Below are positions 14,282 to 39,585 of a stretch of 48,898 bases of DNA, piece by piece. The translations under genes were made by a program, and so were the position numbers. Origin of the DNA: an uncultured bacterium (GTDB lineage Bacteria; Bipolaricaulota; Bipolaricaulia; Bipolaricaulales; Bipolaricaulaceae). The DNA is taken from positions 1 through 48,898 of the forward strand of contig CAKZKH010000236.1 in NCBI GenBank assembly GCA_937122485.1, written 5' to 3'. The stretch's first letter is position 1, and the number at the start of each line of letters is the position of its first letter. The notes beneath the pieces were generated by a model that did no database searches, was not told the DNA's origin, and saw only the letters and a list, made by a program, of their open reading frames with translations.

Positions 14282-14806
14282 CTAAGGAAGGTGAGAGCGG
14301 AGGGCCCGGACCTGGGCGTGGACCTTGCGCAGTTCCTCCAGGGGTAGGCTTTCGATCAAGATGCCAATCTCCCGGAGGAGTTGGCTTCTTTCCCGTTCCT
14401 GGCGGTTGCGTTCGAAGAACGCGGCCTCGGCGAGACGATGGGCACTGTTGTTCCCTTCCCGCTCCACGAAGTTCACCCGCCACTTGGGGAGACGGGACAG
14501 GGCCTCCAAGGCCAGCCGGTTCAAGTGGGCCAGATGGGGTTCGCGAACCTTGTACACGCCGTTGATCTGATTGGCCAGAAGTTGACTATCGGTGAGGAAC
14601 ACCACATCGTCCGGGGCGTGCTGGACGGCCAGCCGGGCCCCTTCAATCAAAGCCTTGTACTCCGCGACGTTGTTGGTGGTCCGGCCAATCACTTTGCCCA
14701 CTTGCTGGATCACGCGGCCCTTCTCGTCGGTGATGACCACCCCCACCGAGGCCTCCCCGGGGTTGCCCCGCGAGCTCCCGTCCACGTGCACAAAAAGCTT
14801 CTTCAT
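14282..14806 (-). CDS. RNase H-like protein (RNase HI family)
   Basis: 174 residues. RNase H fold: VHVDGSSRGNPGEASVGVVI carries the first catalytic Asp, NNVAEYKALIEG the Glu, VFLTDSQLLANQINGVYKV the second Asp, and the segment FVEREGNNSAHRLAEAAF the N-x-x-A-H/D-x-L-A motif. A short charged C-terminal region (about 45 residues) follows. It would cut RNA in RNA-DNA hybrids; it is of the 'reverse-transcriptase-like' RnhA branch rather than E. coli-like. The ATG is 3 bases after the last base of the tRNA(CAT) gene and no ribosome site exists, since the upstream sequence is the tRNA acceptor stem. Confidence 0.9.
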   Translation of the reverse strand: MKKLFVHVDGSSRGNPGEASVGVVITDEKGRVIQQVGKVIGRTTNNVAEYKALIEGARLAVQHAPDDVVFLTDSQLLANQINGVYKVREPHLAHLNRLALEALSRLPKWRVNFVEREGNNSAHRLAEAAFFERNRQERERSQLLREIGILIESLPLEELRKVHAQVRALRSHLP

Positions 14807-14809
14807 GTT

Positions 14810-14881
14810 TGGGCCCGGCAGGCCTCGAACCTGCGACCAACCGGTTATGAGCCGGCTGCTCTACCCCTGAGCTACGGGCCC
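14810..14881 (-). tRNA. tRNA with CAT anticodon (elongator Met, or Ile2 if lysidine-modified)
   Basis: Cloverleaf: acceptor GGGCCCG/CGGGCCC, D-arm GCTCAGGGGTAGAGC, anticodon loop CTCATAA on GCCGG/CCGGT, T-arm GCAGGTTCGAGGCCTGC, discriminator A. CCA is not encoded (AAC follows). The paired 1-72 end and the absence of three G-C pairs next to the loop rule out the initiator. I cannot separate Met from Ile2 by eye. It begins 10 bases after the transketolase stop and ends 3 bases before the RNase H-like ATG. Confidence 0.93.
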
Positions 14882-37175: not shown

Positions 37176-37439
37176 CTAACCCGCCCCCTTCTTGCGTTCC
37201 TTTTCCTGAACGTGGGCTTCGATGTAGGCGATGGCCTCCCCCACCGTGGCGATCTTCTCCACGTCCTGGTCAGGGATCTCGATTCCGAACTCGTCTTCCA
37301 TCTCCATGAGGAGCTCCACGGTATCCAACGAATCCGCGCCCAGGTCGTCCACCAACGAGGCCTCATCGGTGACCTCTTCCAGGTCCACCATGAGCTGTTC
37401 GGCGATGATTTCCCGCACGCGGTCGGCGATCTCGCTCAT
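37176..37439 (-). CDS. acpP: Acyl carrier protein
   Basis: 87 residues, acidic. The phosphopantetheine site is [20 protein letters not shown], with the serine in DSL. N-terminus [19 protein letters not shown] and the C-terminal [17 protein letters not shown] are typical; a short basic tail KERKKGAG is unusual for this acidic protein. Excellent ribosome site AAAGGAGGTGG. Follows plsX after 129 bases, with its own probable promoter. Confidence 0.97.
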
Positions 37440-37568: not shown

Positions 37569-38540
37569 TTAGAAAGGGGGGAGTTGGGCGAGGAAGTCGG
37601 CCTGGCACACCTTGAACACGCGGCGAACAGCTCCGGCGACGGCCGGGGCATCGGAGCGGCCGTGGGCCACAAACACCAGGCCCCTTACCCCCAAAAGGGG
37701 GGCAGCGTTGTGCTCGCGGTACCCCAGGCCGCGGGCGACGGCCCGCAGGGCTGGCCGGGCTATCCAACCCCCCAGCCGAGCCCGCCGCGACCGGTGGAGC
37801 TCCCTCCGCAGAGCCTCTGTTACGGCCTCCACCCCGCCTTCCAGGGCTTTGAGGAACAAGTTGCCGCTGAACCCGCCTGTCACCACCACGTCCACCGGGC
37901 GCTCGGTGAGCACGTTGTGGGGTTCCACGTTGCCGCGGAAGTCGGGCCGCTGTGCGAGGAGGGCATGGGCCTGTTGGGTCACCGTGTCCCCCTTGTGGGG
38001 CTCGGTTCCGATGTTGAGGAGACCCACGGTGGGGAGGGCTACGTCGAGAACCACCCGGGCGTACGCCGCCCCCATCGAGGCGAACTGAAGGAGGTAGGGG
38101 GGTTTGGGGTCGGCCGAGGCCCCGGCGTCCACCAGGAGCACCTCTTTTCCCTTCAGGGTAGGGAGGGAAGCGCACAGGGCCGGGCGGTGGACTCCGGGCA
38201 GCCGCCCCAGGTGGAGGAGGGCGGTGGCCACCACCGCCCCGGTGTTCCCGGGAGAAAGGAAGGCTTCCGCCTGCCCCTGGGCGAGGAGGGCGAGCCCGCG
38301 GGCCAAGGAAGTGTCGGTCCGGCGCGCCGCTTCCACCGGCTTTTCCTCGGGGTCCACAAACAGAGGGCAATGGAGGAGGGAAACGTTGGGGAGGTCCGGC
38401 AGGTGGGGTTCGATTTGGCGGGCATCGCCCACGACCACGAGGTCCAGGGGGAGCTCCGCCGCCGCCTGAGCGGCCCCTGCGGCCAGCTCCCCGGGGGGCC
38501 GGTCGGCCCCCATGACGTCCACCACGATTCGGGGAGCCAC
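37569..38540 (-). CDS. plsX: Phosphate acyltransferase PlsX
   Basis: 323 residues. Makes acyl-phosphate from acyl-ACP for phospholipid synthesis. VAPRIVVDVMGADRPPGEL at the N-terminus (family VDAMGGD), FLSPGNTGAVVATALLHLG, VLLVDAGASADPKPPYLLQFA, GLLNIGTEPHKGD, and VDVVVTGGFSGNLFLKALEG are the conserved blocks. GTG 38540 aligns with the family start and begins 1 base after the CCA of tRNA-Leu; no ribosome site exists because the upstream bases are the tRNA acceptor stem. An in-frame GTG at 38525 would remove the first beta strand. Confidence 0.93.
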   Translation of the reverse strand: MAPRIVVDVMGADRPPGELAAGAAQAAAELPLDLVVVGDARQIEPHLPDLPNVSLLHCPLFVDPEEKPVEAARRTDTSLARGLALLAQGQAEAFLSPGNTGAVVATALLHLGRLPGVHRPALCASLPTLKGKEVLLVDAGASADPKPPYLLQFASMGAAYARVVLDVALPTVGLLNIGTEPHKGDTVTQQAHALLAQRPDFRGNVEPHNVLTERPVDVVVTGGFSGNLFLKALEGGVEAVTEALRRELHRSRRARLGGWIARPALRAVARGLGYREHNAAPLLGVRGLVFVAHGRSDAPAVAGAVRRVFKVCQADFLAQLPPF

Positions 38541-38541
38541 C

Positions 38542-38628
38542 TGGTGCCGAGGGTGGGATTTGAACCCACACAGGCCGAAGCCCACTGCCCCCTCAAGACA
38601 GCGCGTCTGCCAATTCCGCCACCTCGGC
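38542..38628 (-). tRNA. tRNA-Leu (anticodon GAG)
   Basis: Class II cloverleaf with acceptor GCCGAGG/CCTCGGC, anticodon loop TTGAGGG (GAG) on CTGTC/GGCAG, a long variable arm, T-arm GTGGGTTCAAATCCCAC and encoded ACCA. The next gene's start codon begins after one base. Confidence 0.95.
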
Positions 38629-38637
38629 GCGGTGGGG

Positions 38638-38666
38638 ATGGTATCGGAGGCTTCTCAGCCGATCAA
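38638..38666 (-). promoter_or_regulatory. Promoter of tRNA-Leu-plsX
   Basis: TTGATC (38666-38661), 17-base spacer, TACCAT (38643-38638); the tRNA begins 9 bases after the -10. Its -35 is 3 bp from the -35 of the divergent holA promoter. Confidence 0.65.
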
Positions 38667-38706: not shown

Positions 38707-39585
38707 ATGCTGGGCGTGTACTGGGGGGATCCCCTGCTTTGCGAACGGGCCCTGGCGAAGAGGCTCGCGGCCTTTGGCCCCGGGGAAAGACGGGTGTTGT
38801 GGGGCGATGAACCCTGCCTGGGCCCCCTCGTGGAGGAGCTCCGCAGCCTGGACCTCTTCTCCGCCCAGCGGGTGATCGTGGTACGGCGCGCCGATCCCCT
38901 CAAGGATGAACCTGTTCTTGTCCGCACGCTGGGTCGAGGACTTCCCCCCGGGCTTGGGGTGTTCTTCCTCGGGCAGGACTTGCGTGGGCCGTTGGCCCGC
39001 CAGGCCCAGGAGGCCTTGGGATTCCCTACGCCCAAGGGCGGGGAACTCAAGGCCTTGGCTCGGATCTTGCTCGAGGAGGCGGGGGTCCAGGGTCCTGATC
39101 ACCTCGTCGATTTGCTTGTCGAGGCCTGCGGTGGGGAAACCCTGAGGTTGGCTCAGGAAGTGGGGAAACTTGCAGTCTGGGGGGGAAGAAGACTCTCGCT
39201 GGATCAGGCTCAACGGCTCCTTGTGTTCTCTCAGCCCCTGGTTTATCCCTACCTTGACGCGCTGGGGCGGGGGCAGACGGGACCGGCCCTGAACGTGTTG
39301 CGCGAGCTCCTGCGCAGGGGCTGGTCAGCGCCGGCTTTGTTCTTCATGGTGGTGCGTCACATTCGGGACCTCCTCATGGTTCTGGGGGCCCGGGCGGAAG
39401 GAAGGCCGGCTCCTGGGCCGGACTGGCTTGTGCGCCGGCGGTTGGACCAGGCCCAGCGCTGGGGAGAAGCGCGGTTGGTGGAGCTGCTTGTTCTGGCTCA
39501 GGAGCTTGATGTGAAAGTGAAAACGGGCCGCCTCTCCGCCGAGGCGGCCCTCCAGCTCCTTACGCTTGCGTGGGCACCGGCCTGA
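38707..39585 (+). CDS. holA: DNA polymerase III delta subunit
   Basis: 292 residues. Clamp-loader subunit that opens the beta sliding clamp. The early part shows MLGVYWGDPLLCERALAKRL, then LRSLDLFSAQRVIVVRRADPLKD, the family's 'LFS..R.V.V...' stretch, and LRLAQEVGKLAVWGGRR. The C-terminal collar domain has PLVYPYLDALGRGQTGPALNVLRELLRRGWSAPALFFMVVRHIRDLLM and the KTGRLSAEAALQLLTL end, a good HolA pattern. Slightly shorter than the E. coli protein. Its last 26 bases overlap the 3' end of secD on the other strand. Confidence 0.85.
   Translation: MLGVYWGDPLLCERALAKRLAAFGPGERRVLWGDEPCLGPLVEELRSLDLFSAQRVIVVRRADPLKDEPVLVRTLGRGLPPGLGVFFLGQDLRGPLARQAQEALGFPTPKGGELKALARILLEEAGVQGPDHLVDLLVEACGGETLRLAQEVGKLAVWGGRRLSLDQAQRLLVFSQPLVYPYLDALGRGQTGPALNVLRELLRRGWSAPALFFMVVRHIRDLLMVLGARAEGRPAPGPDWLVRRRLDQAQRWGEARLVELLVLAQELDVKVKTGRLSAEAALQLLTLAWAPA

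Follow-up and report, generated by a model that had tools for sequence, protein, structure and literature searches.

How a gene is translated when its start codon leaves no room for a ribosome site is the question raised by plsX in an uncultured member of the Bipolaricaulaceae. In the stretch of DNA analysed here (the window, 48,898 nucleotides of contig CAKZKH010000236.1), plsX begins almost immediately after a tRNA-Leu gene read from the same strand. The answer proposed below is that the cut that finishes the tRNA also makes the 5' end of the message.

Anatomy of the tRNA-Leu-plsX junction

With the tRNA end placed by ARAGORN and Rfam and the plsX start codon GTG at 38540-38538, the gap between the encoded CCA and plsX is 1 nt, exact to the base as originally predicted (Table 1). 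The GTG at 38540 can be accepted as the start because the homologous position is the start codon in all relatives of the family. In addition, the protein reaches 272.2 bits against the TIGR00182 equivalog model (cut-off 243.4) with a profile match from residue 4, as expected from the claim that this start fits the PlsX family. A Shine-Dalgarno (SD) site between tRNA and start codon is absent in the window, where there is one base only, which bears out the claim that a ribosome site has no space. The tRNA itself is the single Leu tRNA with a GAG anticodon found in the window's genome.

Table 1. Features of the window at its two tRNA-gene junctions
Feature	Position	Strand	Remarks
-35 element TTGATC of the tRNA-Leu promoter	38661..38666	-	TTGATC-N17-TACCAT
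-10 element TACCAT	38638..38643	-	9 nt before the tRNA-Leu 5' end
tRNA-Leu(GAG)	38542..38628	-	ARAGORN and Rfam; encoded CCA 38544-38542
Single base G between CCA and plsX start codon	38541..38541	-	
plsX	37569..38540	-	GTG start, 323 aa, no SD possible; TIGR00182 272 bits, PF02504 266 bits
acpP	37176..37439	-	next same-strand gene; start taken from ORF translation
holA	38707..39585	+	TIGR01128 91.7 bits; divergent neighbour, bounds the promoter region
tRNA-Met(CAT), no encoded CCA	14810..14881	-	TTGCTT-17-TAACAT (14917-14889) ending 7 nt upstream
RNase H-like gene	14282..14806	-	PF13456 80.8 bits; start 3 nt (AAC) past the tRNA-Met discriminator base

Conservation within and beyond the family

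In all 26 family loci examined, tRNA-Leu(GAG) stands directly upstream of plsX, and in 20 of them plsX starts no more than 15 nt from the discriminator base, after a gap of 1 nt in the window and of 6-9 nt in the others. An SD is lacking in all 20 short leaders; the two regular-expression matches (ccAGGAccg) borrow the final A of CCA. A gap of exactly 1 nt occurs at no other plsX locus and comes from one MAG, that of the window. Because two single-contig genomes (G004, G014) show the arrangement as well, it is no assembly artefact of MAG contigs. Junctions of the Bipolaricaulota type are moreover seen in records titled Thermotoga, Neomarinimicrobiota and Caldisericota (L001, L010, L012), which are probably mislabelled MAGs.

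The remaining six family loci (L034, L037, L039, L040, L041, L028) have spacers of 46-126 nt, with a U-tract touching the ATG. Among the three scanned, a terminator-like hairpin before the U-tract was called in L039 and L040 and not in L034. A U-tract of this kind, abutting plsX and preceded by a hairpin, is possibly a leaky terminator that sets the ratio of tRNA to mRNA. Given the U-tracts of these six genomes and the hairpin in two, a single mechanism may not account for every locus.

Two other families of the class, f2 and f8, also have tRNA-Leu(GAG) followed by plsX, with a spacer of 21-37 nt that mostly holds an SD-like site; class-level loci L057-L059, L061, L063, L065-L068 and L070-L072 were left out because their short stretches offered no alignable start. 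Since f2 and f8 retain the order together with such a spacer, the linkage is, on this comparison, old, and its SD-less form is probably derived at the family level. The original prediction had named relatives whose plsX has its own ribosome site as evidence against it; such relatives do exist outside the family. The anatomy of the junction and its conservation are solid. For annotation, the case is a warning that start codons abutting tRNAs may be real.

The same layout at other tRNA genes

The surroundings of tRNA genes were surveyed in four family genomes, and homologue searches were added for the junction genes. The window itself holds a second junction of a tRNA with a coding sequence, from tRNA-Met to an RNase H-like gene (14282-14881, minus strand). 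This gene starts no more than 15 nt from the discriminator base in 10 of 25 family loci, mostly 3-10 nt after the tRNA, and it provides an internal control: an SD is found in 11 of the 15 genomes with a longer spacer versus 1 of the 10 with a short one. In one locus (L155, G004:C1:1040331-1040843), one TAG is reported inside the RNase H-like match.

A third junction joins tRNA-Val(CAC) to a P-loop protein, with 21 of 23 family starts at most 15 nt from the discriminator base. These 21 leaders, of 6-12 nt and in many cases U-rich, contain no SD. The 180-aa P-loop protein of the window's genome has no Pfam match; on G000:C37 (L121/L206) the genes for RNase E/G, tRNA-Val(CAC) and the P-loop protein follow one another on one strand, the last starting 6 nt past the tRNA.

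Other cases are confined to single genomes. In G012 (L315, L320), RNase III begins after tRNA-Gln as CCA-1 nt-ATG, a geometry identical to that of plsX, and an amidase, GatA-like by reading, starts 5 nt after tRNA-Leu(CAG). The thyX gene after tRNA-Gln was rejected as a conserved junction, being seen in the window's genome and not in relatives. By contrast with these layouts, an SD is retained in most of the surveyed genomes at tRNA-Thr-tuf (tRNA-Thr(GGT), present in three of them) and at tRNA-Trp-secE, and the SD mechanism is therefore in use in the family. In all four surveyed genomes (L276, L279, L286 and G000 L099), tRNA-Phe(GAA) is followed after 37-50 nt by a gene whose N-terminus is shared among them; it is dnaA in G004 by Pfam and dnaA-like by sequence in the other three.

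The variety of these genes speaks against one part of the original prediction, namely that phospholipid synthesis is tied to tRNA maturation. Because unrelated genes (RNase H, the P-loop protein and, in single genomes, ThyX, RNase III and the amidase) share the layout, a lipid-specific coupling was rejected, and coupling of plsX to its tRNA is not supported beyond the trivial sharing of one promoter and one cut.

A proposed cut that finishes the tRNA and begins the message

With no room for a ribosome site after the tRNA, the tRNA-finishing cut probably also makes (nearly) leaderless messages. In this account, which we consider probable, RNA polymerase would start from the promoter 9 bp before tRNA-Leu(GAG) and read through into plsX and probably acpP. 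RNase P would make the 5' end of the tRNA, and a Thermotoga-type tRNase Z would cut at, or one base past, the encoded CCA. The identical cut would release the finished tRNA and set the plsX 5' end with 0-1 leader bases, and translation of this mRNA would then be leaderless. Among relatives, the cut would leave 6-9 nt before plsX, 6-12 nt before the P-loop gene and, for most RNase H genes with a short spacer, 3-10 nt. From the sequences we infer read-through, the site of cleavage and translation without a leader.

The enzyme required by this account was looked for in the window's genome. Its tRNase Z scores 250.7 bits against the T. maritima enzyme (1WW1) versus 54.6 against that of B. subtilis, and 265 bits against TIGR02650 (E 3e-79; below this model's cut-off of 507 bits) versus 123 against the general model TIGR02651. 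It lacks the PxKxRN motif, which has been tied to CCA anti-determination, as well as the GP motif and HST (PMC3161902 for the role of PxKxRN). The variant HEAT described for TM-type enzymes is not seen, since HEAT is retained, and the protein is best filed as TM-like, short of a proven TM-type enzyme. Enzymes of the TM type apparently do not read CCA as an anti-determinant (PMC3161902). That T. maritima tRNase Z cuts after CCA, as the original prediction stated, is confirmed by cuts mapped directly 3' of CCA for 45 tRNAs, some of the cuts falling one base past it (PMC7479834). At the window's junction, a cut one base past CCA would leave GUG exactly at the 5' end.

A different nuclease might separate the two RNAs. 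RNase E/G is above cut-off in 14 of 15 genomes, spacers are U-rich in part of the family, and E. coli processes tRNA precursors with RNase E (PMC3985628, PMC4681348). We nevertheless find it unlikely that RNase E/G takes the place of tRNase Z, as the window's junction CCA-G-GTG is G+C-rich and offers no AU-rich single strand, and a cut further downstream would destroy the plsX start codon. Any such cut would also call for trimming back to CCA by an exonuclease, and the usual enzymes for it were not detected: in 15 class genomes RNase PH gave no match above cut-off (12 weak matches are probably PNPase) and no RNB-domain exonuclease (RNase R/II) was found, while most control genomes were positive.

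Probable transcription from the tRNA promoter

A motif TTGANN-17-TANNAT stands 8-11 nt before tRNA-Leu in all 25 family loci tested, the 26th lying at a contig end, and is the top promoter match in the three loci scanned. Conversely, TAnnnT at -16..-12 of plsX is absent in all 20 short-gap loci, the window included, and in the window the whole 25 nt upstream of plsX hold no TAnnnT, the box expected of a leaderless promoter. Because a promoter precedes the tRNA and no TAnnnT box precedes plsX at the short-gap loci, a single transcript carrying tRNA-Leu and plsX is the simplest reading of the sequences, in agreement with the one upstream promoter originally predicted.

The competing view is that plsX is an ordinary leaderless gene, transcribed separately from the GTG or a site close to it by a promoter within the tRNA gene. 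Leaderless promoters are common among first genes of the relative G004, and TACAAT occurs just upstream of the ATG in the long-spacer genome L039. The lack of TAnnnT in 20 of 20 short-gap loci, where the region is conserved tRNA acceptor and T arm, makes such a start quite improbable, and a promoter inside the tRNA was rejected on this ground. A promoter scan likewise gave none inside the tRNA, although its threshold also misses the tRNA promoter itself.

It could also be argued that the closeness is meaningless, the product of drift in a compact genome, and that plsX is poorly translated in an SD-independent way from an uncut transcript. Chance drift alone could give a one-base gap; short gaps are usual in operons, no other genome has the exact 1-nt gap before plsX, and the thyX junction is missing from relatives. 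However, linkage in 26 of 26 loci and recurrence of the layout at other tRNA-gene pairs, with short SD-less junctions conserved for three gene pairs across the family, are hard to reconcile with drift. The SD reappears where the spacer is long, and a tRNA left on the transcript would block 30S binding beside the start codon. We rate this view as very improbable. Finally, initiation inside an unprocessed tRNA at GTG 38585, with GAGG of the anticodon arm as SD and 15 extra codons in an open frame, is hardly credible and was rejected: the openness is trivial because, by inspection of the letters, each of the three frames across the tRNA 3' half contains a GTG and no stop, the in-frame upstream start lies at 33, 36, 45 or 51 nt among relatives, with differences between genera, and is absent in L028 and L034, the tRNA would have to be unfolded, and it is from the proximal GTG that the protein matches the PlsX profile.

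Possible translation of the released message

SD and leaderless statistics were drawn from 400 kb of the relative G004 and 77 genes of the window's genome. Of 183 first genes in G004, 27 have TAnnnT at -16..-12 compared with 4-8 in control windows, and these genes are depleted in SD (p=0.0027); the window's genome gives 5 of 56 (controls 1-2). The family thus appears to have leaderless initiation as a native trait. For mycobacteria, a 5' AUG or GUG is enough for it (PMC4633059). Leaders of 6-12 nt, as in the relatives, are short rather than strictly leaderless.

The predicted 5' end of the released plsX mRNA folds at -36.8 kcal/mol over 61 nt (z -2.06) with the start codon inside the fold, and is about 8% unpaired in a 65 C model, while relatives vary. 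On this model, so tight a fold should hinder leaderless initiation; it may reduce or control the output of protein, or follow from the high G+C.

Proposed tRNA punctuation and known systems

The broader proposal is that tRNase Z makes the 5' ends of several housekeeping mRNAs as a standing, mitochondria-like mode of expression in the family, followed by (near-)leaderless translation. This we see as evenly balanced between holding and failing. If true, it would take in plsX, RNase H and the P-loop protein, as well as RNase III, thyX and the amidase in single genomes. Leaderless genes would then not need to come first in a transcript, as cutting out a tRNA would leave a distal gene without a leader, and gene layout would be linked to the loss of 3' exonucleases and to a tRNase Z that tolerates CCA.

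Parts of the scheme have precedents. The tRNase Z resembles the T. maritima type (1WW1; PMC3161902, PMC7479834) in sequence and in lacking the motif for CCA anti-determination, but differs in its HEAT and in a genome where CCA is encoded in 23 of 44 tRNA genes, about half. The leaderless genes of Actinobacteria and Deinococcus-Thermus (PMC3160421, PMC4633059) are similarly SD-less and have their ATG or GTG at the mRNA 5' end or close to it, but there transcription begins at this end, downstream of a -10 box, whereas here processing next to a tRNA is proposed to create it.

The open-access literature yielded no bacterial example in which processing of a tRNA gives rise to a leaderless mRNA. Bacterial tRNA-mRNA operons such as thrT-tufB and secG-leuU of E. 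coli are co-transcribed, as we infer for tRNA-Leu and plsX, and the tRNA-Thr(GGT)-tuf pair of three surveyed genomes resembles them, but their mRNA leaders keep an SD, whereas at the junctions described here 1-12 nt separate the start codon from the tRNA. In animal mitochondria, tRNA punctuation by RNase P and an ELAC2-type tRNase Z yields near-leaderless mRNAs. Unlike mitochondria, the bacterium has SD-led genes elsewhere and would use this mode for some genes only, with a tRNase Z of TM type by sequence, an encoded CCA and an own promoter for each tRNA. In both systems, tRNAs abut reading frames and leaders of about 0-12 nt lack an SD; if tRNA excision sets the mRNA 5' end here too, as proposed, the family would offer a free-living bacterial counterpart of mitochondrial tRNA punctuation.
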